Origin: Pseudolactococcus reticulitermitis
GTDB taxonomy: Bacteria; Bacillota; Bacilli; Lactobacillales; Streptococcaceae
Direction of reading: 5' to 3'
Assembly (NCBI RefSeq): GCF_002260845.1
Contig: NZ_BEDT01000001.1
Location: 62,001 to 126,000 of the forward strand
DNA length: 64,000 bases
Shown here: one piece after another, positions 25,948 to 40,748 of the stretch
Layout: each line of letters opens with the position of its first letter
How positions within the stretch are numbered: position 1 is the stretch's first letter
Position numbers and translations under genes: made by a program
Notes under the pieces: generated by a model
Databases searched by the model: none
What the model saw: only the letters and a program-made list of their open reading frames with translations
Told to the model about the DNA's origin: nothing

Positions 25948-26193
25948 CTAGGCAGACAGTTTAGATTTCGGCTGAGTTCTTCTAATCATCAGGACTAGAA
26001 TCAGACAGACCAAACCAATCAACATCAGACCTCCCGCCGCTTGTAACTCGCCCGTACTGGGCAGCAGTCCCGTCGGCGCTGCCACGCTTTTCTGTTGGAC
26101 AGTATAGCGTGGTGCACTTGTTTTGGGTAAGTCTGGCGGCGTTACTGGATCTACCATTCCTAATTGACCTGAGACGGTTAATTCACTCTCCAT
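25948..26193 (-). CDS. Cassette A small LPXTG protein without signal peptide (putative donor-strand anchor)
   Basis: This 81-aa protein begins M-E-S-E-L-T-V-S-G-Q-L-G, then a Pro-rich linker containing L-P-K-T-S, a Y-T-V-Q-Q strand, L-P-S-T-G at residues 44-48, one hydrophobic segment and a basic tail. GGGAGGTGAT precedes the ATG and an in-frame TAG lies four codons upstream, so the lack of an N-terminal signal peptide is real. The tail-end helix must place the short N-terminus outside. The V-S-G-Q-L-G segment resembles V-S-G-T-L-G in the subunit encoded upstream. I infer a wall anchor that offers a beta strand to the subunit. Paralogues exist in cassettes B and C. Confidence 0.75.
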   Translation of the reverse strand: MESELTVSGQLGMVDPVTPPDLPKTSAPRYTVQQKSVAAPTGLLPSTGELQAAGGLMLIGLVCLILVLMIRRTQPKSKLSA

Positions 26194-26227
26194 GACATCA
26201 CCTCCCTAATGATTGAGGTGTCATTGC

Positions 26228-26824
26228 TTAAAAGTTAACAACATCAAATTTCAAGCTTAAAGTGTAGTTTAATTTCAAAGCTGTTGCTGCTGTTGCTGTA
26301 CCACTAAAGCCAAATGTCGCTTTGTTAGCATCTGCTACTGCTGTATCAGTCGCAGTGTAATGACCAAGATTATTTGCCAAAGTGATGAGTGCGTTTGTTG
26401 GTGTGTTAAGCGCCCCGTTTTCAACTAATTTTGTGCTGGCTGTTGTCACGTTGTTACCTGTCACATCCAAGTTCAAAGCAAAGTCAGCTGGCAATGTTGG
26501 GTTTGATGTTCCCGCTTTAAAGCTAGCAACGCTAACTGTGACCGGACGACCTGAGTTGTTTGTCAAGTCGTAAGTTGGTGATTTGATTGCGGCATCAGTT
26601 GCTTTGTTATAGAAAATCACGTCAGTTGGCAATGTCACGTTAATCCAGTCTTTGTCGCCTTCAGGAATTGTTGACCCTGGGTCTGTATTATCAGCACCGA
26701 GTGTCCCGCTAACCGCGATGTCTGCATCTGTTTTGGCAACAACATCTTGATCAGCTAGAACGGCTTGAGCGCCACCAGCAAGTACAGCAGTTGAAATAAG
26801 TAAAGTAGATAGTAATTTTTTCAT
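26228..26824 (-). CDS. Cassette A secreted beta-sandwich subunit
   Basis: This 198-aa exported protein has a signal peptide (M-K-K-L-L-S-T-L-L...cleavage near V-L-A|D-Q), an N-terminal extension with D-I-A-V-S-G-T-L-G-A-D-N-T-D-P, and a beta-rich domain starting W-I-N-V-T-L-P-T and containing F-Y-N-K, N-N-S-G-R-P-V and a final L-N-Y-T-L-S-L-K-F-D. It has no LPXTG, no W-x-L motif and no cysteine. The domain is clearly homologous to the C-terminus of the cassette A adhesin. I infer a fibre or adaptor subunit whose N-terminal strand complements the next domain. AGGAAAACC lies before the ATG. Confidence 0.75.
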   Translation of the reverse strand: MKKLLSTLLISTAVLAGGAQAVLADQDVVAKTDADIAVSGTLGADNTDPGSTIPEGDKDWINVTLPTDVIFYNKATDAAIKSPTYDLTNNSGRPVTVSVASFKAGTSNPTLPADFALNLDVTGNNVTTASTKLVENGALNTPTNALITLANNLGHYTATDTAVADANKATFGFSGTATAATALKLNYTLSLKFDVVNF

Positions 26825-26883
26825 GGTTTTCCTCCAATTATGAAATATAAAATAGTTATAAGCAACACGCTAACATCTAAACG

Positions 26884-27414
26884 TTAGCTAACAATAAAAT
26901 TGACCCCAGCAGCAACCTCGCCCTTTTTAGACTTCGTTTTCGGATCATATAAACTGAAACGAGCGGTTGCTTTATAGGTTCCCTTAGCTAATGATTTCTC
27001 TAGCTCGACATCCCTCACCTCCTCTCCTGGCTCAATGGCACCAGACGTATAAATGACATCACCTGTTGCATCGTCCGTGATGACGACATTCACAGGATAG
27101 GCATTCGTCTTAGGATTTTTAATATTCAGTTTGCCTTTTTTAGTCTGCTCATCAATCTCTGCTTTCGAGCCGATGACCATGTTAAATTGACTGGCATCGA
27201 CTTTTTGCTGTGCAGCTTTGGCAATCTCCTTATCAGACATTTTCTTGGCGTCCTTGCCCTCAGGCAAGAAATCACCACTGATAACAGAGACGTTTTCTTT
27301 GGGTTTATTCCAAAAGAAATGATAAACGCCATAGCTACACCCGATTAATAAAAGACAAAGCAATGGAATCAGAACTTTTTTTAACTTGTTCTTGTCATGA
27401 TTCTCGTGGGTCAT
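26884..27414 (-). CDS. Cassette A membrane-anchored assembly-type protein
   Basis: This 176-aa type II membrane protein has a basic cytoplasmic start, one membrane helix (residues about 13-30) and an extracytoplasmic domain: E-N-V-S-V-I-S-G-D-F-L-P, a helical A-K-K-M-S-D-K-E, then a beta-sandwich-like part (N-I-K-N-P, P-V-N-V-V-I, V-I-Y-T-S-G-A-I-E-P-G-E-E-V, K-G-T-Y-K-A-T-A-R-F). I recognise this kind of domain only as conserved-hypothetical in Firmicutes. It is present once per cassette between adhesin and subunit, so a chaperone or assembly platform role is plausible but inferred. Confidence 0.7.
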   Translation of the reverse strand: MTHENHDKNKLKKVLIPLLCLLLIGCSYGVYHFFWNKPKENVSVISGDFLPEGKDAKKMSDKEIAKAAQQKVDASQFNMVIGSKAEIDEQTKKGKLNIKNPKTNAYPVNVVITDDATGDVIYTSGAIEPGEEVRDVELEKSLAKGTYKATARFSLYDPKTKSKKGEVAAGVNFIVS

Positions 27415-27647
27415 CTGTAACTCCTTAGGTTAAATATTTGATAGGACACGCCTACACTCCTGACACTATTTCAAGTTGCAAGAGTTTGGAGTGAAGAAAC
27501 AGCACCTCCAGCGGAAGTAAAAACAAACTGCAATGAGGGGGGAGCATTCTTGTTTTTTGACCTAACATCTTACTGTGATGCTGTCTCGTCACTCCAAACT
27601 CCTATCACAAATTAAATAATCGTGAGTTGAGATAGGAATCGGCTAGC
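27415..27647 (-). other. Intercistronic region with 25-bp inverted repeat
   Basis: Between adhesin A and the membrane protein gene lie near-perfect inverted repeats at 27482-27506 and 27577-27601 (22 of 25 positions pair), each containing GAGTTTGGAGTGA and ACAGCA, around a 70-bp loop. No T tract follows on the minus strand. It may be an RNA processing or attenuation hairpin, or a small mobile-element remnant. Confidence 0.6.
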
Positions 27648-30485
27648 TTAAAATGGCGTACTATCAAATTTCAAGTTTAGAATATAGCCTAATTTCCGCA
27701 TGTCTGTAGTTGTCGCTGAGCCACCAAAAGTGAACGTCGCAATGTTATCACTTGCTACTCCTTTGTCAACTGCCGGATCGACCTCATCATATTGATTGAA
27801 ACAGTTTGCCAAGGTCATCAACTGATTCGATGATGTCTGCGGTAGACCATTCTCGACTAATTTGGCGCTGGCTGTCGTGACTTTTTTCCCTGTCGGATTG
27901 AGACTTAAAGCAAAGTCTGCTGGCATGGCTGGATTCGCCGCATTTGGTGTAAAGCCAGCAAGGCTTACTTTCATCGGCACACCCGAGTTATTTTTAATCG
28001 TATAAATCGGAGATTTAATCGTCACATCATCTGTTTTATTGTAAAAGATGGTACTTGTCGGTATCGTCACATTAATCGTCGCATCTAGTTCATAGACAAC
28101 CGTACTTGTCAAGGTATGACCTGCTGTAGGATGAACATTATTGTAGTGGACACTCGTATTTTCTGTTACGGTAGGCAGATAGCCTGATAGACTAGGCACC
28201 TCAGGTGAGTCAAAGGTAATGGTACCATCTGACTCTACACGAGAGTAGCCCGTTTGACCTCCTGGCGCACCTGATAAATACCGAGGTTTGCTAGGATCGA
28301 GGGTGATATCACCATTAACCGCATAATTGGCAAAGTTAGTGGTAATCTTATCCCCTGTCATTTGATCCTCAAAATACTCATATTGCGCTGTCTCAGTCAA
28401 TCTGTAATCCGGAGGTGCTTGACCTTGCCCACCTCTTACAGTATATTTGACGTCATGATGGACGGTTTTACTTTCTGATTTTTTTTGTGAATCATGAACA
28501 AATTCAATCAGATATTCCTGGTCAACGCTTGAGTCAAAATCAAATTTTTCAGCATTATCTGTAAAGTTAGTGCTTTTAAGGATATAGCCTTGCTGTCTAT
28601 AATACTCAACCGTATAGGCTGTATCATAGGGCAGCAATGTCCCCCCTACCCCTTGGATGCCCTCCTCTCTAAGAATTGTTCCCGTCGTCGCATCTTTATA
28701 GACGATGTTCGCTGTTTGGATTTCTGCCTGATACGTGATGGTATGACGCTGTGGCACACTATCCGTTGTTGCTTTTAAGTTCGGCGTTTTATCGGTCGCT
28801 TCACTCGGAATACCTAGATTTACCTCAGCATCTGTTACGGGCACGTCATCAATGACTGCTCGATAACCTGGAATGGCATACTGTCCACCTAGCTCAGGGA
28901 AATCTGTATCAGTCGTTGTACGCTGTGTTTCTGTTTTTTGCGAGCCATCTGGCATATGAATCGTTAGGATCCGTTCTTGAACAGATGGCAAGGCGTAGAG
29001 ATTGGCCTCTTGTGGCGTGCTATCCGTTGTTGATGTCCCATTTGATGTGTCATCCACTTGGGCAGTCCAGGTCACTTTCGATCCATCTGAACTCGTTGCA
29101 GGATTTGAAACATCAGAACCGACAACCGCATCTTTATCAACGATGTAATAACCGGATAAGGCATTGGTCGTCTGATTGATTGTTTCATTTGTTTTAGCCG
29201 TCCACTCATCTGTCCCGATATTTTTACCGGTCAACTGATTGATATGTTTAACTGTCCATTGTTGGGTGTCACGTTGGTAGACAACCGCACCAAGTGAAAA
29301 CGTTGACTCCCCAACATAGGCTGTCGGATTTAAACTTGACAAGTAGGTGTAACCTGAAGGCATGCCTGGCTTATCAAAGTAATAAGGGGCTTCGTCATCT
29401 TCATTACCAATCCCTAATCTCCCTCCTCGGGGCATGAGGATTTTTGAATCTAAGGCTAGTTTATTGCCCGCCTCATCTATGAAACGCACCGTTCTATTGG
29501 TTGTCAGATAGGTTCCCGTTATACCGGTCACAACAGAACGACTCGTGTATTTAGAATCATTTTTGTTACCATTCCCAACGATACCTAGATAAACTGGTTT
29601 GTCTTTCGGAATACGGTACTGAATGGTTGCTGATTTCGTTTTGCTATCGTAGGCACCCACACCCCAATCCGTTGTCGATGAATTATGTTTGTAGGTGACC
29701 GATACAATACCAGTAGAGGCTGCATAGTTGATACTCACATCGACGACAACATTTTCCCAACCCGCATAAAGTCCAACATAATCATCATCCATATATTCAG
29801 AGGCGCCAAACGCTGACCCACCAGCAGTTATCCGACTGTAAGCCGTACCACTTGATAGGGTTGCAATCCAGCCACCGTCATTATGGAAACCAGAAAACAA
29901 CATATAATGCCCTTTATAAGCTTGGCTCTCGTCCTTTAATGAACCAGATGACCCCGGCCAGTTCCCAACACCAGTTCCTAATTTGTCAATAATCTCAGAA
30001 GATGGAATATCTGAGATATAAAAGCCAGCTGCCGGAATCCGACCATCTGGGACTGTCACACTTCCTGAAATAGAAAAGTCTTTCGACGGGTCTAGTGGTT
30101 GGTTGAAGTTGGCGATGGCATTGGCAGCAGGTGCTGCGGGAATGACAAAAGTAGAGCCACTCCAATACGGGTTAATCCCCCCTGTACTCGATATTGTCGC
30201 ATTATTAGGAAAATCTTTTACGACTGTTGCCGGTACGGTAAAGTCTGAAACAGAGGCATAAAAGTCTGTCGGTAGCACGACACCACGCAACAAAACTGAC
30301 GCAGTATTTGACATCGCATGTGCAACGGTATCGCCTAGGCCTTCGTGAACATAATTTAAAATTTTTGGTGTGATGCCTGTGCCGACTACTAAGGTCGCTA
30401 AAACACCACTCGCATACAGCCATTTTTTGCCCGATTTCCATGACCGATAATTTGTTTGTTTAGTGTCATGTTTAGAATTTTTCAC
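27648..30485 (-). CDS. Cassette A large adhesin with KxYKxGKxW-type signal and C-terminal subunit domain
   Basis: This 945-aa secreted protein opens with a long basic leader containing Y-R-S-W-K-S-G-K-K-W-L-Y, the KxYKxGKxW-type signal associated with accessory Sec export of glycosylated adhesins. The N-terminal half (about 80-330) is a lectin-like beta domain. MucBP-like modules follow (W-T-V-K-H-I-N near 405, N-I-V-Y-K-D-A-T-T-G near 590). Residues about 804-945 are homologous to the whole beta-sandwich of the cassette A subunit (I-N-V-T-I-P...F-Y-N-K...N-N-S-G-V-P...L-N-L-K-F-D), but without the V-S-G-T-L-G strand. No LPXTG is present, so wall attachment must go through partners. I infer a tip adhesin. 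Confidence 0.8.
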   Translation of the reverse strand: MKNSKHDTKQTNYRSWKSGKKWLYASGVLATLVVGTGITPKILNYVHEGLGDTVAHAMSNTASVLLRGVVLPTDFYASVSDFTVPATVVKDFPNNATISSTGGINPYWSGSTFVIPAAPAANAIANFNQPLDPSKDFSISGSVTVPDGRIPAAGFYISDIPSSEIIDKLGTGVGNWPGSSGSLKDESQAYKGHYMLFSGFHNDGGWIATLSSGTAYSRITAGGSAFGASEYMDDDYVGLYAGWENVVVDVSINYAASTGIVSVTYKHNSSTTDWGVGAYDSKTKSATIQYRIPKDKPVYLGIVGNGNKNDSKYTSRSVVTGITGTYLTTNRTVRFIDEAGNKLALDSKILMPRGGRLGIGNEDDEAPYYFDKPGMPSGYTYLSSLNPTAYVGESTFSLGAVVYQRDTQQWTVKHINQLTGKNIGTDEWTAKTNETINQTTNALSGYYIVDKDAVVGSDVSNPATSSDGSKVTWTAQVDDTSNGTSTTDSTPQEANLYALPSVQERILTIHMPDGSQKTETQRTTTDTDFPELGGQYAIPGYRAVIDDVPVTDAEVNLGIPSEATDKTPNLKATTDSVPQRHTITYQAEIQTANIVYKDATTGTILREEGIQGVGGTLLPYDTAYTVEYYRQQGYILKSTNFTDNAEKFDFDSSVDQEYLIEFVHDSQKKSESKTVHHDVKYTVRGGQGQAPPDYRLTETAQYEYFEDQMTGDKITTNFANYAVNGDITLDPSKPRYLSGAPGGQTGYSRVESDGTITFDSPEVPSLSGYLPTVTENTSVHYNNVHPTAGHTLTSTVVYELDATINVTIPTSTIFYNKTDDVTIKSPIYTIKNNSGVPMKVSLAGFTPNAANPAMPADFALSLNPTGKKVTTASAKLVENGLPQTSSNQLMTLANCFNQYDEVDPAVDKGVASDNIATFTFGGSATTTDMRKLGYILNLKFDSTPF

Positions 30486-30785
30486 GACTCATATCTCCTT
30501 TCTAGTACTTACTCTTTAGTTTTCTGACGATAAGCGTTATGCTAAAATTTTCAGCATATCGTTCATGTCAGATTGACTGCACTTTAAGTTTATAACATTT
30601 ATCATAAAATGGTGTCTTGTTTTTGTTCGAATAATGAAAAAAAAAAAAAAGTAAGATTTTTTCCGCTTTTCTCTTATATCCTATAAGGTTTTTATAAATA
30701 TTCTATCTTTTATTTTTCTTGAATGTTTGTTGATTTTGGAGTAAGATATGTAATTACAGATATATTTTAAGGATGAGGGGATATT
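30486..30785. promoter_or_regulatory. Divergent regulatory region between adhesin A and the Mga-like gene
   Basis: The minus strand has a plausible promoter (AAGACA at 30613-30618, 18-bp spacer, TATAAA at 30589-30594) and a near-palindromic hairpin at 30538-30558 in the adhesin leader. A run of 14 A residues (30637-30650) sits about 20 bp upstream of that -35 box. The plus side has GATTTTGGAGTAAG (30733-30746), containing TTTGGAGT as in the cassette A repeats, close to the regulator's own promoter. Confidence 0.55.
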
Positions 30786-32252
30786 ATGGAAACTTTTTTA
30801 TTGGATAAAGAATCTAAGTATATTTTAAAAATCATCGGAGAATTGAGCATGTCACCGACAAAATCAATCTCTTTTAAAAAACTCGAAAATCGCATTGGTC
30901 TCACGAAAAAGACCATCATCACCTATATCGGCACTTTAGAAGGCTATTGTAAAGAAAATAACATTAACCCCTTTATAATTGATAATCAAAAAATTAGATT
31001 ATCAGCAAAATCTAATTTTAATGTTTTGGATCTATATTCTTATATGACGCAACATGCGATCAAATATCAAATTATGACACGGGTTCTGTTAGAGCCACAG
31101 GTCTCTTCTGTCAAGTTATACCTTGATTTGGCACTGAGTAAGAGTAATTTTTCTGTTCATCTGAAACAGTTAAATAACTTTTTAAAATCCTATCGCTGCC
31201 AGATTAATTTTCTTCATAAAACGCCACTTCAAGGAAAAGAAAGACAGATTAGATTTTTGTACTACAATTTGTTTTGGGGCTTACATCCTGATACGATGAT
31301 CCCTGATTTTCCGGGCCTTGAGACCATCACAGATTTAACACTGGAACTTATCCCACACATTTCCTACCCGACCTTATCAAAAATCAAATTACTTTTCTAT
31401 GTGACCTACATCAGGAGAAAACATGGTTATTTTATAGACTCAGAAGAAAATTATAGCCTACCAGACTCGCCCTATATCAGTTTTGATGATTTTTTCACAA
31501 AGCTAGATTGCCTTAACCTGCTCATGGATTGCCCTGATTTAGAAACCAAACGGCGAGAATGTCGCTACTTATATTTTTTATTTTCTCGTTTCAATTTAGT
31601 CACGCTTGAAGAGTGTCAGAACGACGCCTTTGAAATCAATGGGACAGATGCGCCTGAAATTGCCTGTTTTATTGCCAAATTTCAGACAAAATCAAACTTA
31701 ACCTTTCAAACACATGAGCTCAAATATCTGCATTATAACTTAACGATTTTAAACCGTGAGGCGACTGTTTTCAAAGGTAAAAGTAAAGTGTTTGATTTAA
31801 AAAATATGGTGCTGACATTTAATGAAACGAAAGGCAACACAGCTACTTTTATCAAAGAATTTCTGATGGACATCCGTGAGAAGTGCCCACAGATTAACAC
31901 CTTAATGGAGCGGTTTCCCACGCTATACTACTATTATGCGATGATTATGACAGCGATTGTCGAAAAGCATCATCAACCGATTAAACTGCTCGTGCAAAGT
32001 AGTATTTCAACGCTCCACCGAGAATTTCTCATCCAGAAAATCATAAAAGGGGCACCCTTTCCTGTTCAAATTTATACTGCTTCACAACTAAAAGGTGAGA
32101 AGCCTGATGGCATCATCTCTAACTGGCTACCTGATAAAAAATATCAGGATATTCCCTTCTTCTCTACTTCTTTATTCTACTCAGATTGGAGTCGAGATGA
32201 TTTAACTCAGTTTATTTATGATTTATCAGATCAGAAGAATCAACTCAGATAA
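30786..32252 (+). CDS. Mga/AtxA-like transcriptional regulator
   Basis: This 488-aa protein has an N-terminal helix-turn-helix (S-F-K-K-L-E-N-R-I-G-L-T-K-K-T-I-I-T-Y-I, residues about 25-50) like the HTH_Mga domain, a long helical PRD-like middle, and a C-terminal part (P-I-K-L-L-V-Q-S-S... Q-I-Y-T-A-S-Q) resembling an EIIB-like strand-helix pattern. Mga-type regulators activate surface adhesins in streptococci. It is divergent from cassette A and lies directly beside cassette B, so it probably controls them. GGATGAGGGG precedes the ATG. Confidence 0.82.
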   Translation: METFLLDKESKYILKIIGELSMSPTKSISFKKLENRIGLTKKTIITYIGTLEGYCKENNINPFIIDNQKIRLSAKSNFNVLDLYSYMTQHAIKYQIMTRVLLEPQVSSVKLYLDLALSKSNFSVHLKQLNNFLKSYRCQINFLHKTPLQGKERQIRFLYYNLFWGLHPDTMIPDFPGLETITDLTLELIPHISYPTLSKIKLLFYVTYIRRKHGYFIDSEENYSLPDSPYISFDDFFTKLDCLNLLMDCPDLETKRRECRYLYFLFSRFNLVTLEECQNDAFEINGTDAPEIACFIAKFQTKSNLTFQTHELKYLHYNLTILNREATVFKGKSKVFDLKNMVLTFNETKGNTATFIKEFLMDIREKCPQINTLMERFPTLYYYYAMIMTAIVEKHHQPIKLLVQSSISTLHREFLIQKIIKGAPFPVQIYTASQLKGEKPDGIISNWLPDKKYQDIPFFSTSLFYSDWSRDDLTQFIYDLSDQKNQLR

Positions 32253-32278
32253 ACGTTAAAAATTATTATGATTAACCA

Positions 32279-32313
32279 AAAAGACCTCTTTTCCAAATAA
32301 AACAGAAGAGAGA
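32279..32313 (-). terminator. Terminator of surface cassette B
   Basis: On the minus strand GATCTCTCTT pairs with AAAAGAGGTC (one mismatch, one G-U) and is followed by TTTTT. Confidence 0.65.
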
Positions 32314-32325
32314 TCCTATTATGTT

Positions 32326-32372
32326 GGGCTTTTCACCTTAAACGCAATGTTTAAGATGAGAAGCCCTTAATT
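32326..32372 (+). terminator. Terminator of the Mga-like gene, inside the end of the cassette B anchor gene
   Basis: GGGCTTTTCACCTTAAAC and GTTTAAGATGAGAAGCCC form an 18-bp stem (one mismatch, one G-U) with a 5-nt loop and TTAATTTTT after it on the plus strand. It overlaps the last ~12 codons of the convergent small gene. Confidence 0.7.
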
Positions 32373-32577
32373 TTTGAAGATATTTGAGAAGAAGTATTAA
32401 AGCCAGACAGATCAAGCCTAGAATGACAAATCCTGCTAGTTGTGATTCACCCATATTAGGCAAATCCTCTTGCTGCCGAACTGTATAGTTTGGTGTTTCT
32501 TGAGGTGGCTTTTGATCACTTGAATGATTTTCGTCTTTTATGCCTAATTGACCTGAGACGATTATTTCATTTTCCAT
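32338..32577 (-). CDS. Cassette B small anchor-like protein with LPNMG in place of LPXTG
   Basis: This 79-aa paralogue of the cassette A and C anchors starts M-E-N-E-I-I-V-S-G-Q-L-G after AAGGTGAT; the ATG at 32577 is preferred over an upstream one at 32592. It has the Y-T-V-R-Q-Q strand, then L-P-N-M-G at residues 39-43, a hydrophobic helix and a basic tail, and no signal peptide. The Thr of the sortase motif is Met, so standard sortase A processing is doubtful: the protein may stay membrane-bound or need a special sortase. The final codons overlap a convergent terminator hairpin. Confidence 0.7.
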   Translation of the reverse strand: MENEIIVSGQLGIKDENHSSDQKPPQETPNYTVRQQEDLPNMGESQLAGFVILGLICLALILLLKYLQKLRASHLKHCV

Positions 32578-32595
32578 GAAAATCACCTTCATTCA

Positions 32596-33201
32596 TTAAA
32601 ATGCAACAGAATCAAACTTCAAGCCCAAAGTATAGCTTAATTTCAAAGGCGTTGTAGATGTTGCTGTACCGCCATATGTGAAGGTTGCTTGATTATCAAC
32701 TGCTGTTGCTACTGTGTCAGATGCCTTGAATTGATTAGCACTATTTGCCAAAGTAATTAACTCAGAAGGAGCCGCTGTAACTGAACCATCTTTAATCAAT
32801 TCTGTGCTCGGCGTTGTTGCAGGATTGGCAGTGGTTCCTGTCACTTTAAGATTCAAATCAAAATCTGTTGGCAATGCACCATTGTTAGCATCAGCAGTAA
32901 AGCTAGCAGCTGTTACTTTTACAGGTCGTCCTGAATGGTTGACAATTGTATAAGTTGGTGCCTTAATCGTCGCATCATTCGTTTTATTATAGAAGATGGT
33001 ATTAGTTGGTATCGTCACATTAATCCAAGCTGGATCTGTTTCCGGAATCGATGATCCCGGATCAGTATTATCAGCACCTAATGTGCCGTTGACCGTAATA
33101 TCTCCAGCTGATTGTCCATCGATAGTTTGATCTGCTGAAACAGCTTGAGCGCCTGCAAATACAGCAGTTGAGATTAGTAGTGTTGCAAGTATTTTTTTCA
33201 T
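32596..33201 (-). CDS. Cassette B secreted beta-sandwich subunit
   Basis: This 201-aa exported protein is a paralogue of the cassette A subunit: signal peptide M-K-K-I-L-A-T-L-L..., N-terminal extension D-I-T-V-N-G-T-L-G-A-D-N-T-D-P, then W-I-N-V-T-I-P-T-N-T-I-F-Y-N-K and the same beta-sandwich ending L-S-Y-T-L-G-L-K-F-D. Start 33201 is chosen because the signal peptide matches its paralogues; 17 upstream codons in the open frame are not signal-like. It lies 18 bases before the anchor gene. Inferred to link adhesin B and anchor. Confidence 0.75.
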   Translation of the reverse strand: MKKILATLLISTAVFAGAQAVSADQTIDGQSAGDITVNGTLGADNTDPGSSIPETDPAWINVTIPTNTIFYNKTNDATIKAPTYTIVNHSGRPVKVTAASFTADANNGALPTDFDLNLKVTGTTANPATTPSTELIKDGSVTAAPSELITLANSANQFKASDTVATAVDNQATFTYGGTATSTTPLKLSYTLGLKFDSVAF

Positions 33202-33279
33202 TTTCCCTTTTTCCTTTTTTCTTGTTTGTTTTCCCGTTTCCACCATTATCACGATTGATAGTGAGGTAGCGATAAATTG

Positions 33280-33813
33280 TTAGTCGACAATAACATTAAC
33301 CCCAGCAGCAACTTCACCCTTTTTAGCTTTAGTGACTGGATCATATAAGCTAAAATGTGCCGTTGTCTGATAGGTCCCCTTAGATAATTTTTTCTCTAAT
33401 CTTACATGGCTCACCTCCTCTCCCGGCTCGATTGCACCCGATGTATAGATGATGTCGCCTGTTTGATCTTCAATGATGACAACATTGACTGGATAAGTAT
33501 TGTTCTTAGGATTTCGGATATGCAGTGTCCCCTCTTGTGTCTGACTAGCAATATCCACTTTTGAGCTAATCATCATGTTGAAATGACTTGCATCAGCCTT
33601 TTTTTGTGCAAATTCAGCCAGCTCTTTATCAGACATTTTCTTAGCATCTTTTCCTTTGGGCATGAAATCTCCACTGATGATAGAAATATTTTCTTTTGGT
33701 CTATTCCAAAAGAAATGATAGATGCCATAACCACCACATACTAATAAAAGACAGAGCAATAGAATGACTAGTCCTTTTTTCCGCTTCTTTTGATTATCGT
33801 CTCCATAGTTCAT
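33280..33813 (-). CDS. Cassette B membrane-anchored assembly-type protein
   Basis: This 177-aa type II membrane protein is closely similar to its cassette A and C counterparts (E-N-I-S-I-I-S-G-D-F-M-P-K-G-K-D-A-K-K-M-S-D-K-E, P-V-N-V-V-I, I-Y-T-S-G-A-I-E-P-G-E-E-V, F-S-L-Y-D-P). One membrane helix follows a basic start. It lies between adhesin and subunit genes, with GGGGGA before the ATG. A chaperone or assembly role is inferred from position and conservation. Confidence 0.7.
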   Translation of the reverse strand: MNYGDDNQKKRKKGLVILLLCLLLVCGGYGIYHFFWNRPKENISIISGDFMPKGKDAKKMSDKELAEFAQKKADASHFNMMISSKVDIASQTQEGTLHIRNPKNNTYPVNVVIIEDQTGDIIYTSGAIEPGEEVSHVRLEKKLSKGTYQTTAHFSLYDPVTKAKKGEVAAGVNVIVD

Positions 33814-33834
33814 ATCCTATTCCCCCAGTTTTTA

Positions 33835-35916
33835 TCATCTTGTAACTTGTTTGACTTCCACCGCAAGTTTATAACTTACAGCCTTGAGTCCAGCCCCCAA
33901 TGGTACTGATTGCTTACCATTAACATAAAGTGATGCTTGGTGACTTGTTTCCCAAAACGGATCTAGTTTAATTGGATTGCTAGGTATTGGTTTACCTTCT
34001 AGTAAAGGACTCCAAGTCACATCTTCACCACTTGCCGTATTTTCAGCAGTCAATTTTAAGACCAACTTCTCTGTTTCATTATCAAATTGATCGACAAGCG
34101 ACACATCAGGAGAACATCCCGTATTACTTGCAATCGTTTTCAAATCAACATTAACAGGGACATTACCATGATTAACGGCGACATAATTTTGCAGGTTATT
34201 GGATTTACCAAATTCTCCTGCTAAGCTACTCGTAAAATCGATACTATCTGGCAAGGTTACAGCAATCAATGGTTGGACAGCAACGACTTCTTCGACCCAA
34301 GGACTATCAAAAATATACCCCGAAGCTGACGCCCGTTGCTCACCTATTTTACTATAAAGATAGTAGGTCTGTGCTAGTAAATTTTGAAAAACATATGTTG
34401 ATTCTTTTGAAACATCACTTGTGATATTAATGACGGGCGACTCAAGGACACCTTCTGCTGATGTTGCCTTGTCAATACTGTTTTGAGCCTCCCCAAGCGT
34501 GACATCATTTCCTGAATACAGCTTATTTTTAGCCAATTTATAAGAGACCCGACCACTGCTAAAACTGCTTGATGCCCCTTTCTTAACCTGTGCGTCAATT
34601 TCACTGAGATCTACTCCTACTTTTGGTGTTGCAGCCAGTCCTGTCATTTGTGACGCACGCGCATACACAAGAGAGTAACCATTTTGAATATTTGAAGCAG
34701 AAACGTTTTGTGTTCCCGACACATTTGTAACAAAATGCTTTTGACCACTTGTTGTCAGATAGTCAATCGGGTAATTATACCCATCCGTGTCTTTTCTGAC
34801 AAACTTCGGCGTTATCCCACTGATGACCGACTTATTAGTTGGTGTTGCTTCAAACAAAATATAGTTTGGTGATGTCGCATTAATCGTTGGATAGTTACGA
34901 CTAGTGCCAGTAAAAGCGTCCTTCTCTGTCCTAAAGCAGCCGATACTATCCTTAGCAAAATTCATCGTGATCGTCCCATTCCCCCATGATCCATCACTCC
35001 TCAACTCTGCTTTTGAAGCTGTATAATTTTTCCCCTTAATAAACTTGCAAGTAAACTGACCTTTTTCTTGAACATTAATCGTAACATCGTCATCATTATA
35101 GAAAAGATATTCCTTACTTGTCGTAATCTCTAACGTTGCATTTTTACCTATGTTAACCTTCTGCTTGGCACACCAAAACACAGCATCAGAATTTGTTGAA
35201 TCATTATAAACTGTTGTTTTGCTGTCATCTGCAAAGTTAAGCGTTGTAAAGCCCTCAACAAATTCTCCGCCGTCTACATCACCATCTGTTCTAAAGCTGT
35301 TTGTCCCTTTAAATGTCAATGTATTTGACGGATTACTATTCCCCCAAAACGGTTGGCTTCCCTTTACCGTATTATAGTCAATATTTTCTAAAACAAAATT
35401 AATATTACTATTTAAGACACGGAGAATGCCGTAATAACTACTGTTTGGATAGGTTGCATTGCCGTATTTCAAATTTTTAAAGGTAATATTGAGATTGTTA
35501 GCAGCAGTCACAAAATGTGAAGCATCATAGGACGGCCAGCTACTTGGGGCTTTGTATAGAATATAGTGGTTCGCACCATCTAATACCGTATTTTTGCTAA
35601 CGGCTATCGTAAGATCCGAATCTGTATAAGCGATATCAGCCGTTAATTGAATATAGAGTGTATTACCAGAAGCGGCGTTCGCCTTCAATGCTGATTTTAA
35701 ATCGGAAATATTTGATACCTGATACGGATTATTTTCTGTACCATCTCCAGCATATGACGCACGCGCCGTAATGTTTTCTTTCAAATCTTTTTGTATGCCA
35801 TCAGTCGGTTCTACACTACTTTGGATTGGTGATGCGCGTTCATCTGCTCCTACAATCATGCTAAAAAAACCGATTAGTATGACAGATGTTAACAACATCT
35901 GAATCATCTTCTTCAT
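33835..35916 (-). CDS. Cassette B large beta-helix adhesin
   Basis: This 693-aa protein has a cleavable signal peptide (residues 1-25) and a right-handed beta-helix-like region (about 50-390: D-G-T-E-N-N-P-Y-Q-V, L-T-A-D-I-A-Y, N-T-V-L-D-G-A-N-H-Y, L-T-F-K-G-T-N-S-F) of the pectate-lyase-like adhesive type. Linker domains follow, then a C-terminal beta-sandwich (about 550-693) starting I-A-V-T-L-P-D-S-I-D-F and containing N-H-G-N-V-P-V-N-V. No LPXTG or membrane anchor. Its C-terminal domain resembles the subunit fold but lacks the V-x-G-T-L-G strand. It is collinear with the 675-aa protein of cassette C. Confidence 0.78.
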   Translation of the reverse strand: MKKMIQMLLTSVILIGFFSMIVGADERASPIQSSVEPTDGIQKDLKENITARASYAGDGTENNPYQVSNISDLKSALKANAASGNTLYIQLTADIAYTDSDLTIAVSKNTVLDGANHYILYKAPSSWPSYDASHFVTAANNLNITFKNLKYGNATYPNSSYYGILRVLNSNINFVLENIDYNTVKGSQPFWGNSNPSNTLTFKGTNSFRTDGDVDGGEFVEGFTTLNFADDSKTTVYNDSTNSDAVFWCAKQKVNIGKNATLEITTSKEYLFYNDDDVTINVQEKGQFTCKFIKGKNYTASKAELRSDGSWGNGTITMNFAKDSIGCFRTEKDAFTGTSRNYPTINATSPNYILFEATPTNKSVISGITPKFVRKDTDGYNYPIDYLTTSGQKHFVTNVSGTQNVSASNIQNGYSLVYARASQMTGLAATPKVGVDLSEIDAQVKKGASSSFSSGRVSYKLAKNKLYSGNDVTLGEAQNSIDKATSAEGVLESPVINITSDVSKESTYVFQNLLAQTYYLYSKIGEQRASASGYIFDSPWVEEVVAVQPLIAVTLPDSIDFTSSLAGEFGKSNNLQNYVAVNHGNVPVNVDLKTIASNTGCSPDVSLVDQFDNETEKLVLKLTAENTASGEDVTWSPLLEGKPIPSNPIKLDPFWETSHQASLYVNGKQSVPLGAGLKAVSYKLAVEVKQVTR

Positions 35917-35949
35917 TATTTAAATTCCCCCTTATTATCCCCCTATTTT

Positions 35950-36669
35950 TCACTCTGCAAATACGATGCGATTATAACCATTCTCTAAACAAGTTTGTAA
36001 AACAACTTGTTCCTTATTACCAGCTCCTGTTATGGCTGACCAATGATTTTGACCGTCTTTTGAAATCGCATTAATATCAACATCTAAAAGACGCATGACA
36101 GTATAGACCTTGCCTTGCCCCGTCGCATCATAAACCTCAAACTGATGACCAACTAACAGTTGCGTGACGAAGTAAAACACTGTTGGATTGTGTCCGATAA
36201 AATGCGTTGATAGATTATCAGACACACTGTTAACGGCTTGACCTCCCCATGTTCCGACATTAGCTGTCGGATCTTGATCAATCCAATCCTGTCCTGTTGC
36301 TTGACCTGTATCCTTATAATAATAGTGTACCCCGCCAACAACAATCACTTGCTTCAAAGGTTCAGTCGTAACCTCTACTTGCTCGGCAGATTCTAAAGCG
36401 TTTTCAAAAGGTGCTAGATTATCAAGTGGCACATCATCACTTGACCTATTATCGCTTGAAAGCAATGGTTCAGTAGGTTCCTCAGAAGTCGATGGCACAA
36501 CTTCTTTTGATTCACATGACTGTGATAATTCTGGTGGCCTGGTCTGAAGTTTTTTTATTTTTGAATTTTTGACCTCCTTTACTTTGATACTTGTGATGTT
36601 CTCAACCAAAAGTACTGTAAAAATTGATACAACGACTGTATAAAGCATGAGTAAAGTTATTTTTTTCAA
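35950..36669 (-). CDS. Sortase-like transpeptidase between cassettes B and C
   Basis: This 239-aa protein has one N-terminal membrane helix, a Ser/Glu/Pro-rich spacer (about 35-110) and a C-terminal sortase-like domain. Likely catalytic residues are His160 (T-H-F-I-G-H-N), Cys227 (V-V-L-Q-T-C) and Arg234 (Y-N-R-I-V-F), matching the His-Cys-Arg triad order, though only 6 residues separate Cys and Arg. Translation starts at TTG (36669) behind GGAGGGG. Lying 33 bases upstream of adhesin B it is probably cotranscribed with cassette B, and may attach the small anchors to the wall. Confidence 0.75.
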   Translation of the reverse strand: MKKITLLMLYTVVVSIFTVLLVENITSIKVKEVKNSKIKKLQTRPPELSQSCESKEVVPSTSEEPTEPLLSSDNRSSDDVPLDNLAPFENALESAEQVEVTTEPLKQVIVVGGVHYYYKDTGQATGQDWIDQDPTANVGTWGGQAVNSVSDNLSTHFIGHNPTVFYFVTQLLVGHQFEVYDATGQGKVYTVMRLLDVDINAISKDGQNHWSAITGAGNKEQVVLQTCLENGYNRIVFAE

Positions 36670-37212
36670 AATAATCCCCTCCTTTACCCTTTAAATGTCC
36701 ATTAACAAACATAGCATGTTTTTTGTTAATGGATACTGATAAGTCATTTAATTTTCATTTGTTCACCTCCCTTAAAATTATTAAGATTTTTTATTGTTAC
36801 CTTGGTAAATGTTTGAAGGATTCATCGTCCTTCATAATAGTGTTGACAACCTGCTCAAATTTCTTTCTTGATACACTGTAAATTTTAAAACTGCATCTCA
36901 ATTTATTGGTTATAACATTATAATCTTAAATAACCTATATTCATATTTTATACCAAATCTCCTAAAATATCAAATTTTTTCACTTCTCTATCGTCAGATT
37001 ATCGATACTCATCTCAGTACTTTTAGAAAAAGTTCATTAATCTTGCTGGCCAAGAAAAAGATGACGCATCTATACCATTTCAATAGCCAGATGAGTATCA
37101 TAACACCCCTAAACAAGTGTCTTGTTTTTTACATCCAAAAAAACCTTTACCATCTCAATCATAGTAAAGGTTTTTGTATGATACAATCTCAGTTCACCAA
37201 TTTTAAGAAGTA
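36670..37212 (-). other. Intergenic region between cassette C and the sortase-like gene
   Basis: This 543-bp AT-rich stretch has no convincing gene. It contains an extended hairpin (TCCATTAACAAA at 36698-36709 with TTTGTTAATGGA at 36722-36733, plus inner ACAT/ATGT) about 30 bases upstream of the sortase-like start, an 11-bp inverted repeat (GATACTCATCT at 37004-37014 with its complement at 37089-37099), and the cassette C terminator. Confidence 0.55.
37137..37176 (-). terminator. Terminator of surface cassette C
   Basis: AAACCTTTAC and GTAAAGGTTT form a 10-bp stem; on the minus strand it ends in seven T residues. It lies about 37 bases after the last gene of cassette C. Confidence 0.88.
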
Positions 37213-37452
37213 TTAAGCCAGTGACTTAGATGTTGATCTTATTCTGAAAATAAGAACAACAATTAGGCAAAGCAAACCGATAAATAGGACACTGCCTGAT
37301 GTTTGTAATTCTCCCGTATCAGGTAAAATACCTTGCTGATGGACAGTATAAATCGTTTGATCGCCACTTGTTCTAGGCAACTCTGGTTCTTCAATTGGAT
37401 CTTGGGTGTCTGTTATCCCTAATTGACCTGAGACGGTTATTTCACTCTCCAT
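37213..37452 (-). CDS. Cassette C small LPXTG protein without signal peptide (putative donor-strand anchor)
   Basis: This 79-aa protein starts M-E-S-E-I-T-V-S-G-Q-L-G behind GGGAGGTGAT, has L-P-R-T-S at 25-29, a Y-T-V-H-Q-Q strand, L-P-D-T-G at 43-47, a hydrophobic helix and a basic tail. As with its paralogues there is no signal peptide. The N-terminal strand mimics the V-K-G-T-L-G strand of the cassette C subunit. I infer it to be the sortase-linked base of the complex. Confidence 0.75.
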   Translation of the reverse strand: MESEITVSGQLGITDTQDPIEEPELPRTSGDQTIYTVHQQGILPDTGELQTSGSVLFIGLLCLIVVLIFRIRSTSKSLA

Positions 37453-37486
37453 GAAATCACCTCCCTGATATTCTAGATTTTATCGC

Positions 37487-38107
37487 TTAAAAGCCAATAG
37501 AATCAAATTTCAGGCTCAACGTATAGTTCAATTTCAGAGCAGTTGTTGCTGTTGCAGAACCGTCATATTTAAAGATTGCTTTGTTTTTCACTGCATAGCC
37601 TGCTGGTGCTAAAGGATCATTTTTAGCGTATTGATCAGCGCTATTGGCCAAGGTAATTAATTCATTCGTTGGGGCATTGAGTATACCACCACTAATGAGT
37701 GATGTACTTGCTGTCGTCGCAGGATTACCAGTTGCTGGGCCTGTTACCAAAAGATTTAAGTTGTAGTCCCCAGGTAATCCCGTTGGATTAGTTGAATTGG
37801 CAGAAAAAGAATTAATACTAACTTTGACTGGACGTCCTGAGTTGTTCACGATTGAATACTCTGGTGAGACAATTGTTGCAACGTCTTTTTTATTGTAAAA
37901 AATAGTCTCCGTCGGTACTGTCACATTGATCCATTCTTTGTCAGTTTCAGGAATCGTTGTATCTGGATCTGTATTATCTGCACCCAATGTCCCCTTGACA
38001 GCGATATCAGCAGTTGTTTCCCCAGTAATGGTTTGATCAGCGGAAACAGCTGACACACCACCGAATACAACTGTTGAAATCAATAAAGTTGATAGTAATT
38101 TTTTCAT
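37487..38107 (-). CDS. Cassette C secreted beta-sandwich subunit
   Basis: This 206-aa exported protein has the signal peptide M-K-K-L-L-S-T-L-L..., the N-terminal extension D-I-A-V-K-G-T-L-G-A-D-N-T-D-P and the domain starting W-I-N-V-T-V-P-T-E-T-I-F-Y-N-K, with N-N-S-G-R-P-V and a terminal L-N-Y-T-L-S-L-K-F-D. Start 38107 follows GAGGGAG; an open frame to 38128 lacks a better site. Paralogue of the subunits in cassettes A and B. Confidence 0.75.
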   Translation of the reverse strand: MKKLLSTLLISTVVFGGVSAVSADQTITGETTADIAVKGTLGADNTDPDTTIPETDKEWINVTVPTETIFYNKKDVATIVSPEYSIVNNSGRPVKVSINSFSANSTNPTGLPGDYNLNLLVTGPATGNPATTASTSLISGGILNAPTNELITLANSADQYAKNDPLAPAGYAVKNKAIFKYDGSATATTALKLNYTLSLKFDSIGF

Positions 38108-38149
38108 AATTTTTCTCCCTCGTATCAATAATTTTTAAATAGTTCATCG

Positions 38150-38704
38150 TTAGTCGACAATGACACTAACGCCAGCAGCAACCTCACCTTTTTTAGCTTT
38201 TGTTTTTGGATCGTACAAACTAAAACGAGCAGTTGCCTGATGCGTTCCCTTAGCTAATGTTTTTTCAAGCTGGACATGATTCACCTCCTCTCCCGGTTCA
38301 ATAGCGCCAGACGTATAAATCACATCTCCGTTTTGATCATCAGTGATGACGACATTGATCGGATAGCGATTGGTCTGGGGATTTTTAATATTTAGCGTCC
38401 CTTGTTGGGTTTGAGTATCAATCTTAGCAGTTGAGGCAATCATCATGTTAAACCGACTATCATCTACCTTTTTTTGAGCAGTATCAGCCAATTCTTTGTC
38501 AGACATCTTCTTAGCGTCCTTACCATCGGGCAAAAAATCACCACTGATGATGGACACATTTTCTCTAGGCTTAGGCCTAAAGACATGGTAGAGACTATAA
38601 CCAGTGCCTGATAATAAAAGTAACAACAAGAGGATTAATAGCCCTTTTTTACGTTTCTTTTTCTGTTCTTCTTGTTTTTCCTGTTCAATATTTTGTGTTG
38701 CCAT
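38150..38704 (-). CDS. Cassette C membrane-anchored assembly-type protein
   Basis: This 184-aa type II membrane protein has a longer, very charged cytoplasmic start (Q-E-E-Q-K-K-K-R-K-K), one membrane helix, then the same extracytoplasmic domain as in cassettes A and B (S-I-I-S-G-D-F-L-P-D-G-K-D-A-K-K-M-S-D-K-E... I-Y-T-S-G-A-I-E-P-G-E-E-V... F-S-L-Y-D-P). It is the most conserved cassette component besides the subunit. Role inferred as assembly or chaperone function. Confidence 0.7.
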   Translation of the reverse strand: MATQNIEQEKQEEQKKKRKKGLLILLLLLLLSGTGYSLYHVFRPKPRENVSIISGDFLPDGKDAKKMSDKELADTAQKKVDDSRFNMMIASTAKIDTQTQQGTLNIKNPQTNRYPINVVITDDQNGDVIYTSGAIEPGEEVNHVQLEKTLAKGTHQATARFSLYDPKTKAKKGEVAAGVSVIVD

Positions 38705-38720
38705 CCCTCACTCCTAACCT

Positions 38721-40748
38721 TTATAATGCTTGGCTAACCGCAATAGTCAAATTATAATTGACCTGATACGGTCCACCATCTAATACTGAAATAGAATGTT
38801 CCCCTCTAAGATAGAGGTCAGCCTCGTGATCGCCACTGCTCCAATAAGGCTGCAAAGTATTTGTTTGCCCCGTGATAGGACCTGGTAGCAATCGTTCCCA
38901 GATACTATTGTCAGATCCCGACGGGTGCTCAGCAACCAGTTTTAAATGAACTTGTTTTTTCCCTTGACAATCGTCGACAAGCGACACCGCTGATGAACTG
39001 CCAGGATTAACGCTTAAAGCCTTCAAATCTAGATTAACTGGTACATTACCATGATTAATCGCAGTATAATTTGCCAAATGGTGGTCTTTCACAATCTCAC
39101 CTGCTTTTGGTGTCAGAAATTCCAAAGTATCCGGTAAAGTGACCTCGATATATGACGGTACCTCTACTATCTGCTCAATCCAAAGGCTCGACAGAGGGTT
39201 GTAACCTGGTATACATGCCACTTCTAGCTTAGTATACAGATAATAGGTTTTGGGGGATAAATCTTGGAACTCATAAATTGAATCTGTTGCGATATTATTT
39301 GTTGCCCAGACCTCTCGTATAGAAAAGACACCCTGAGATGGTGTGGCATTAGTAATACTCGTTTGCGCTACCGCTACCGTGATATCATTTCCAGAATAAA
39401 GTCGTTTTGTCGCTAACTTATAGCTAACCTTACTAATATTTACTAAACTCTCTGGTGTCCATTGCGTAATTTGCACCCTGATTTGACTGAGATCAGTTCC
39501 CACCATCGGATCTGCACTGAGTCCTGTAATTTTTGGTGCCCGCGCATAAACGACTGACTCACCGTTGCCAATATCTGATGCCGTCACACTTTTATTGCCC
39601 GTGACATTTGGGGTTATCTCCTTTAAACCACCTTTGAAATACTTGATAGGATAAGCATAGCCGTCTGCATCTTTTCTACTGAATTTAAGGGTTGCCCCGT
39701 TGAGCGCTGCCTTGCCTGATGGCGAATCAAACAAGATGTAATTAGGTGAGGTGGCATTAATCGTCGGGCTCTCACCTGAAAAGCCAGCTTTTTCTGTCGT
39801 AAAGCGACCGATAGCATCTTTGGCAAACTCCATGGTAATCGTGCCAAGTGCTTTAAAGGCTATATCCAGGGTAGGTTTATTAATACCAGATATGGCTTTG
39901 AACTTGAATTGACCTTTTTCTAGCACTTTAAGCGTCAGGTTGCCATCCCAAGAAAGATACTGTTTATTTGTCGTAATATCCACTAAAGCATTTTTGCCAA
40001 CCGTGATGGTTTGACTAGTCCCTGCGTATAAGAATGCTGACTCGTTATAAGCATCATGGTAAATCGTGGTTTGACTATCTTCAGCAAAATTAATACTCGT
40101 GAAGCCTTGCGCAAACTCACCATCGTAGCCACCACTAGAAGTGCCAGCTTTGAAGTTATTTTTTCCTTTGAAAGTTAGCGTATTAACATTCGTATTCGCA
40201 TAAAACGGCTGACCACCTTTTTGGATGTCATAGTCAATATTTTCAACAACGAAATTAGTGTTGGTATGAGTCACATGTAAAATACCATACCAGTTACTGT
40301 TGGGATAGGTCGCATTGCCATACTTAATATTTTTAAATGTAATCGCTAAATTATCAGCACCTGTTATAAAATGATCATAATCATAATTTGTACCACTGTA
40401 TAAAATGTAATGCCCATCGCCATCTAATACGGTATTTTTGTTGATGGATATTGTCCGATCAGAATAGGCATAAATAATATCTGCCGTTAGTTTAATATAA
40501 AGTGCTGATTCTCCAGGCGGTATACTCTGACTTAAAGCACTTTTTAAATCAGCAATCGTTGCAACCAAAAAAGGATCACTTTCTCTGCCTGTCCCACCTG
40601 AGATAGCAAGCGGTGTGATAGCCAAAACTTGTTCTGATGTTTGCATATCACCGCTTGTTGTTGCCGATGTGTCATCTGCACAAACAAAATTAGACCGACA
40701 AAGAAAAATGATTAAAAATACCATTAATCCTTTTAAAATCTTATTCAT
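38721..40748 (-). CDS. Cassette C large beta-helix adhesin
   Basis: This 675-aa paralogue of adhesin B has a signal peptide ending near V-C-A-D-D, a pectate-lyase-like beta-helix region (about 45-370: D-P-F-L-V-A-T-I-A-D-L, L-T-A-D-I-I-Y, N-T-V-L-D-G-D-G-H-Y, L-T-F-K-G-K-N-N-F), linkers, and a C-terminal beta-sandwich beginning I-E-V-T-L-P-D-T-L-E-F with N-H-G-N-V-P-V-N-L. No wall-anchor motif and no V-x-G-T-L-G strand. The first gene of cassette C; its upstream 280 bp are very AT-rich and probably hold the promoter. Confidence 0.78.
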   Translation of the reverse strand: MNKILKGLMVFLIIFLCRSNFVCADDTSATTSGDMQTSEQVLAITPLAISGGTGRESDPFLVATIADLKSALSQSIPPGESALYIKLTADIIYAYSDRTISINKNTVLDGDGHYILYSGTNYDYDHFITGADNLAITFKNIKYGNATYPNSNWYGILHVTHTNTNFVVENIDYDIQKGGQPFYANTNVNTLTFKGKNNFKAGTSSGGYDGEFAQGFTSINFAEDSQTTIYHDAYNESAFLYAGTSQTITVGKNALVDITTNKQYLSWDGNLTLKVLEKGQFKFKAISGINKPTLDIAFKALGTITMEFAKDAIGRFTTEKAGFSGESPTINATSPNYILFDSPSGKAALNGATLKFSRKDADGYAYPIKYFKGGLKEITPNVTGNKSVTASDIGNGESVVYARAPKITGLSADPMVGTDLSQIRVQITQWTPESLVNISKVSYKLATKRLYSGNDITVAVAQTSITNATPSQGVFSIREVWATNNIATDSIYEFQDLSPKTYYLYTKLEVACIPGYNPLSSLWIEQIVEVPSYIEVTLPDTLEFLTPKAGEIVKDHHLANYTAINHGNVPVNLDLKALSVNPGSSSAVSLVDDCQGKKQVHLKLVAEHPSGSDNSIWERLLPGPITGQTNTLQPYWSSGDHEADLYLRGEHSISVLDGGPYQVNYNLTIAVSQAL

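Follow-up and report, generated by a model that had tools for sequence, protein, structure and literature searches.

Three gene cassettes of Pseudolactococcus reticulitermitis predicted to encode cell-surface adhesin complexes assembled by donor-strand complementation

Within a 64 kb stretch (here called the window) of the 2.17 Mb draft genome of Pseudolactococcus reticulitermitis, three four-gene cassettes lie on the minus strand. By their open reading frames (ORFs) each comprises an adhesin, a membrane protein, a secreted subunit and a tiny anchor, in the order given by an initial annotation made from the sequence alone. We consider it probable that the products of each cassette build an adhesin complex on the cell surface by donor-strand complementation. 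In this scheme the subunit would be an incomplete beta-sandwich, short of one strand, and the membrane protein would hold secreted subunits in folded form. The subunit's N-terminal IxVxGxLG strand would then fill the groove of the next acceptor, either the adhesin C-terminal domain or another subunit. The subunit's own groove is predicted to be filled by an IxVxGQLG strand at the extreme N terminus of the single-pass anchor, or may take the strand of another subunit, and the anchor would be the last link, sitting in the membrane or, if a sortase accepts its motif, attached to the wall.

The roles proposed in the initial annotation, with the adhesin as acceptor only, the subunit as both donor and acceptor and the anchor as donor only, are supported by conservation across cassettes, by two structure predictions and, weakly, by fold matches. 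Chaperone-usher pili follow the same donor-strand logic, with an acceptor-only adhesin. The cassettes appear to be a variant of donor-strand assembly, a mechanism that is supported by prediction but unproven, and a bolder reading would reach the WxL gene clusters.

A donor strand in subunits and anchors

In all three window subunits the motif D-I-[AT]-V-[SNK]-G-T-L-G-A-D-N stands soon after the signal peptide and is followed by a linker and W-I-N-V-T-[LIV]-P, much as first described, with D at the first position in every case. The anchors likewise bear the expected N-terminal motif, M-E-[SN]-E-[IL]-x-V-S-G-Q-L-G, in three out of three, and the cassette 2 anchor ORF as called opens earlier, with a start five codons upstream of the motif methionine (MKVIF). 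Written as a DNA pattern, the subunit motif occurs three times in the 2.17 Mb genome, always within these subunits; read backwards, the same pattern occurs nowhere in it.

First, the strand is conserved. We assembled 46 distinct cassettes, the window's three included, from a genus search, from 16 loci of named genomes and from the 30 best-matching loci in a sample of 395 genomes from the order. A strict pattern, [IVL]x[VILF]xGx[LI]G, is found in 46 of 46 subunits and in 35 of 39 downstream anchors, and the remaining four anchors keep a near form. Because anchors were chosen solely by position, as the next ORF downstream, their count is independent of the motif. The strict pattern is absent from all 38 adhesin ORF pieces (9 of them of at least 550 amino acids (aa)), from the three full window adhesins and from the three window membrane proteins. 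Shuffled controls match it at 0.3% for anchors and 0.5% for subunit N termini; outside the subunit family it occurs in 3 of 857 60-residue segments, and in 53 of 1234 when subunits are still included. In three anchors and at least one subunit the first pattern match falls inside the leader, and the true strand fits as well.

The subunit's closest named relatives are in Lactococcus laudensis, L. chungangensis and L. raffinolactis. Its profile matches 60 of 395 genomes and 16 of 81 genera in the order sample at 1e-3, and in the phylum sample 1 of 398 genomes at 1e-8, namely the window's own.

Second, the anchors are built to present this strand. Those of the window have no signal peptide, and by a crude hydrophobicity rule a leader before the strand is missing in 27 of 39 anchors and present in 12; in both kinds the exposed tail opens with the donor strand. 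Since its C-terminal tail is charged, a leaderless anchor should be a single-pass protein with its N terminus outside. Sorting motifs are loose (LPxTG in 5 of 39 anchors, LPxT[GN] in 11 and [LYFH]PxT[GN] in 30), so some anchors may be held in the membrane rather than attached to the wall. The initial description of small LPXTG-like anchors accordingly holds for the transmembrane (TM) segment and for cassettes 3 (LPDTG) and 1 (LPSTG), but cassette 2 has a degenerate LPNMG. Seven cassettes yielded no anchor to our script: on reading, two have one, one has a candidate 459 bases away and one lies at a contig end, and in the other three no anchor is apparent.

An acceptor domain in the adhesins

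Third, profile matches show the adhesin C-terminal and subunit domains to be homologous. The C terminus of the cassette 1 adhesin matches subunit profile positions 58-203 (E 1.9e-38), with the donor motif, at 35-42, outside the match. A direct match to the subunit profile is seen in 16 of 41 adhesin ORFs (best-domain E 1.9e-38 to 5e-5), 14 of which align from profile positions 57-60; the other two align from position 35, yet are without the motif. Adhesins 2 and 3 of the window have no direct match to this profile and are linked to the subunit domain only via the C termini of other adhesins. A profile of 15 such C termini matches 41 of 41 adhesins (the 15 seeds included), reaching adhesin 2 at E 1.1e-11 and adhesin 3 at E 2.3e-7 in the first pass; it matches 120 of 572 ORFs, many being subunits, and 0 of 572 reversed ORFs. 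The view that the adhesins end in a sandwich related to the subunit's but lacking the V-x-G-x-L-G strand is thus borne out in all 41 C termini, with no motif in the 38 pieces.

Predicted structures and their limits

Fourth, structure prediction supports donation of the anchor strand to the subunit domain. The cassette 2 genes lie in one frame, so that read-through of the stops yields a single chain. Model 1 (AlphaFold) spans the last 151 residues of the cassette 2 adhesin, the membrane protein, the subunit and the anchor (651 aa, 28 alignment rows), and model 2, a control without an anchor, joins the cassette 3 membrane protein and subunit (405 aa). Rows with only an adhesin or only an anchor were left out of the alignments, since MAFFT placed them over the subunit. 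In both models confidence in the subunit domain is high, with predicted local distance difference test (pLDDT) block means of 80 at 421-430 and then 93-96 to 560 in model 1, and pLDDT of 78-95 over 261-400 in model 2. In model 1 the anchor stretch FMENEIIVSGQLGI forms a single strand at 571-584 (block mean pLDDT 87 and 74), and the subunit's own DITVNGTLG, 397-405, is disordered (block pLDDT 30 and 40). In model 2 the subunit's own strand, 233-241, is again disordered (pLDDT 25), the INVTVPTETIFYN stretch is marked as strand for no more than one or two residues at a time, and the last subunit strand has 9 residues as opposed to 13.

The models thus predict an anchor strand that is ordered when joined to the subunit, as the initial annotation had anticipated and here in a tethered chain, and a subunit strand that its own domain leaves unused. 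Of the outcomes that the annotation had held to count against its proposal, packing of V-x-G-x-L-G in its own domain is not seen, but disorder of the subunit's own strand is, in both models; the latter is expected of a donor without a free acceptor. It is improbable that the subunit instead folds alone with the N-terminal strand in its own groove, the motif being a duplicated N-terminal segment without a mechanical role. In general, low pLDDT in an N-terminal extension says little against self-insertion, which leaves that explanation some room; the anchors nevertheless retain the strand although they share nothing else with the subunit and, in 27 of 39 cases, have no leader, and across the two models the strand is ordered only where the anchor supplies it.

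Among the fold matches are donor-strand pilins and an archaeal thread, and the one-domain membrane protein matches pilus-chaperone domains. Searches of PDB sequences with one subunit, the membrane-protein profile, a 24-residue N-terminal stretch, one small WxL protein or a small-WxL profile gave nothing useful. Three weak matches of the subunit profile to insecticidal proteins in the PDB (E 0.0065 to 0.033) were set aside as chance.

Several points weigh against donor-strand assembly as read here. The adhesin part of model 1 is poor (block pLDDT 24-68), so we can only infer that adhesin and subunit pair. Predicted template modelling scores are low (0.38 and 0.43); a tether of about ten residues joins the donor to the subunit and favours a hairpin; the two models come from different cassettes and different alignments; and strand pairing was read from DSSP and pLDDT, without coordinates. 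The Foldseek matches have a TM-score of about 0.15 by query and a root-mean-square deviation above 20 Å, and both VIA lists also contain unrelated Ig-like folds with comparable Z, for the most part under 8. The profile used to collect the 46 subunits itself bears the motif. Finally, an overexpressed WxL operon, elr of Enterococcus faecalis, gave no surface structures by electron microscopy (EM) (PMC4522977; this and the other papers cited by PMC number are drawn on in excerpt).

Chain length and assembly

Pairing between subunits, like that of adhesin with subunit, is presumed from the arrangement described above, and the chain is probably short. A true long homopolymeric fibre, a pilus of head-to-tail subunits with the adhesin at the tip and the anchor at the base, is conceivable but doubtful: donor strand and acceptor domain do both reside on the subunit, and filament subunits are among the nearest folds, but each window cassette has one subunit gene and one anchor gene, and elr showed nothing by EM. 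That EM result makes a short chain likelier than a long pilus. ElrA, moreover, was undetected when ElrB-E were deleted (PMC4522977), and both observations would fit a short chain with an acceptor that is unstable without a donor. The wall-anchored fibre of the initial annotation is therefore partly supported. The single subunit gene per cassette and the negative elr microscopy count against a long polymer, and with strict LPxTG in 5 of 39 anchors, attachment to the wall may not apply to all of them.

The membrane protein stands beside the subunit in 43 of 46 cassettes; in the first of the three exceptions it overlaps a subunit ORF that had been lengthened, in the second it is split in two, and in the third it lies beyond the contig. 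In an L. raffinolactis cassette (L022:4509-4957) we found the gene only in two pieces. Its single domain, matched to pilus chaperones, makes this protein a likely assembly chaperone or platform. A conserved IISGDFLP-like stretch in it, considered as a possible strand mimic, departs from the strict motif, and neither model settled the matter.

Relation to WxL clusters

WxL/csc clusters (cscABCD; for example elrABCDE of E. faecalis), described in 2006 and proposed to form surface complexes (PMC1534035), resemble the cassettes in gene content: an adhesin with a C-terminal domain, a small secreted protein, a membrane protein and a tiny LPXTG protein, the last reported to have very low sequence homology, with an uninformative alignment (PMC1534035). 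The three window anchors match the small LPXTG family NF053819 (EF0750/EF2685) weakly, at 28.9, 31.5 and 36.1 bits (E 1.2e-6 to 7.2e-9) against a cut-off of 47 bits, and by sequence appear distantly related to the small LPXTG proteins that WxL clusters encode. The link to WxL clusters is closer than the initial annotation stated in naming them the nearest analogue, but it rightly reported no W-x-L: PF13731 (WxL) has no match at E ≤ 1 in the two subunits and three adhesins scanned.

By sequence the cassettes are unlike WxL clusters in other respects. Aligned by hhalign, subunits and small WxL proteins reach a probability of 61.7 over 25 columns only, and the membrane protein and WxLIP 8.9 over the TM segment only; we sought sequence homology to WxL and WxLIP in this way and did not find it. 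The three membrane proteins have no Pfam match to DUF916/DUF3324 (WxLIP). Foldseek retrieves the WxLIP structure 9i1y at E 6.8e-4 (rank 40) and 1.6e-3 (rank 18), suggestive of fold only; 9i1y is WxLIP alone, and 9i25 is WxLIP bound to a long WxL, and both structures may be directly relevant to a donor-strand reading. The membrane protein here has one domain and an N-terminal TM segment, whereas that of WxLIP is C-terminal, and 27 of 39 anchors here are leaderless, whereas csc proteins are reported with signal peptides (PMC1534035).

We compared the N termini of anchors and small WxL proteins at 39 loci, 31 of which have both; of these, 28 that are non-identical and together encode 46 small WxL proteins were kept, leaving out L045, where the crude signal-peptide finder failed, and two repeats. 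The mean local score of anchor against mature small WxL N termini is 27.0 within a locus, 25.1 across loci and 21.4 for shuffles, and 19.6 in a control against the N termini of 6 WxLIP proteins. Same-locus pairs exceed shuffles (p 2.7e-5); taken singly they are not above cross-locus pairs (p 0.18, 28 loci), and the best pair per locus exceeds permutation, with 7 of 2000 permutations reaching it. Small WxL and small LPXTG proteins thus have an N-terminal stretch in common, as subunits and anchors do here, which suggests that the donor logic may be general.

Such a stretch could instead serve only as a docking tag, either in a surface complex of 1:1:1 composition or at the wall, without any strand being inserted. 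The csc-like gene content, proposed for surface complexes (PMC1534035), and the lack of structure in elr by EM (PMC4522977) would suit a WxL-like complex of that kind. We think it unlikely, as it does not explain why the anchor strand is ordered next to the subunit domain, or why that domain is open in the model without an anchor. Donor-strand assembly would also accommodate AlphaFold work in which a WxLIP strand completes the WxL sandwich (PMC10599100), the behaviour expected of a donor-strand chaperone. We put forward, as a tentative proposal with a little less than an even chance of being right, that a single Gram-positive donor-strand system has two branches, these cassettes and the WxL/csc clusters. 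In it the large protein would be an acceptor-only tip, small WxL proteins or subunits donor-acceptor links and the small LPXTG protein a donor-only base, with WxLIP or the small membrane protein as the membrane-held chaperone.

In titles and abstracts of mostly open-access papers, preprints apart, we found no donor-strand reading of WxL or LPXTG systems; the excerpts of PMC3796261 and PMC7616799 do not propose one, and those of PMC10599100 and of a 2022 survey (PMC9772566) do not mention donor-strand assembly. Papers such as PMC1534035, as excerpted, leave WxL/csc assembly as an undefined surface complex. A donor-strand reading would give every cassette gene a part, explain why the anchor can consist of hardly anything beyond its strand, linker and membrane segment, and fit the report that ElrA goes undetected on deletion of the remaining operon (PMC4522977). 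It is testable with purified proteins and a synthetic peptide.

A distant cassette, L017/L018 (G010:C43), has an adhesin followed directly by a subunit (VKVSGQVGFDN), with an NF053819-type anchor match (44 bits, 133-aa frame) nearby, and appears intermediate between these cassettes and WxL-type anchors. At L107 (G000:C4:114500-131500) two small LPXTG genes lie in one genome, and a set of four different small WxL genes comes after each. WxL matches number 19 in the genome of the window itself. A reading of two long open frames as tandem WxL proteins was dropped, the frames being separate genes.

Other donor-strand systems

The cassettes would share the donor-strand logic of chaperone-usher pili (FimA, CfaB, Csu), with which they have fold matches, but are Gram-positive and have a donor-only membrane or wall anchor. 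No usher-like gene is among the cassette ORFs, and the 10 of 12 cassette proteins scanned have no usher, chaperone or pilin match in Pfam. TasA/TapA fibres of Bacillus are likewise Gram-positive donor-strand filaments that use an N-terminal strand (PMC10151520), and TapA donates its N terminus without accepting (PMC10151520). The two of three subunits scanned have no TasA/camelysin match in Pfam. For TasA/TapA we know of no adhesin tip or LPXTG-type anchor.

The archaeal threads, Saci_0406/0405, form the top VIA-align row for model 2. Their donor-only partner, Saci_0405, is like the anchors here in not being predicted to be Sec-secreted, although the system is archaeal and, in the excerpt, without an adhesin or wall anchor of the cassette kind; its authors judge it independent of chaperone-usher pili (PMC9715654). 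Unlike those of sortase-assembled covalent pili, the subunits here end at the beta-domain, without LPXTG or TM segment. The locus does have a sortase-domain gene (PF04203 match, 27.7 bits, between cassettes 3 and 2); the sortase dedicated to such pili would be a pilin-polymerising one of class C.

Organization of the locus

Cassette 3 encodes an adhesin of 675 aa with a C-terminal acceptor-type domain and no donor strand (38721..40748), a membrane protein of 184 aa with an N-terminal TM segment and an Ig-like domain, the candidate assembly chaperone (38150..38704), a secreted subunit with the donor strand DIAVKGTLG and an acceptor domain (37487..38128), and an anchor of 79 aa with its donor strand at the extreme N terminus, LPDTG and a TM segment (37213..37452). 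Cassette 2 encodes an adhesin of 693 aa (33835..35916), a membrane protein of 177 aa (33280..33813), a secreted subunit with DITVNGTLG (32596..33252) and an anchor with the degenerate LPNMG and a TM segment (32338..32592), of 84 aa as called or starting from the methionine at 32577. In cassette 1 the adhesin, of 945 aa, has a KxYKxGKxW signal, MucBP_2 and the C-terminal domain homologous to the subunit (27648..30485); the membrane protein has 176 aa (26884..27414), the secreted subunit carries DIAVSGTLG (26228..26824), and the anchor, of 81 aa, has LPSTG and a TM segment (25948..26193). All twelve genes are on the minus strand. Cassettes 2 and 3, with intergenic gaps of 3 to 34 bases, are each probably one transcript; in cassette 1, 233 bases separate the adhesin from the membrane protein.

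The initial annotation had the four-gene sets of this span but omitted two genes between them. A sortase-domain protein with an N-terminal hydrophobic segment, a possible accessory, is encoded between cassettes 3 and 2 (35950..36669, minus strand); it is one of five sortase matches in the genome, and phmmer found no match to it in the other loci searched, most of which have short flanks. Between cassettes 2 and 1, divergent to cassette 1, lies a Mga-type helix-turn-helix protein that may be a regulator (30786..32252, plus strand; PF05043, 49 bits). Adjoining the cassettes, 20174-24034 on the minus strand encodes a 1286-aa protein with a legume-lectin-like domain, repeated mucin-binding domains and an LPXTG-type anchor.

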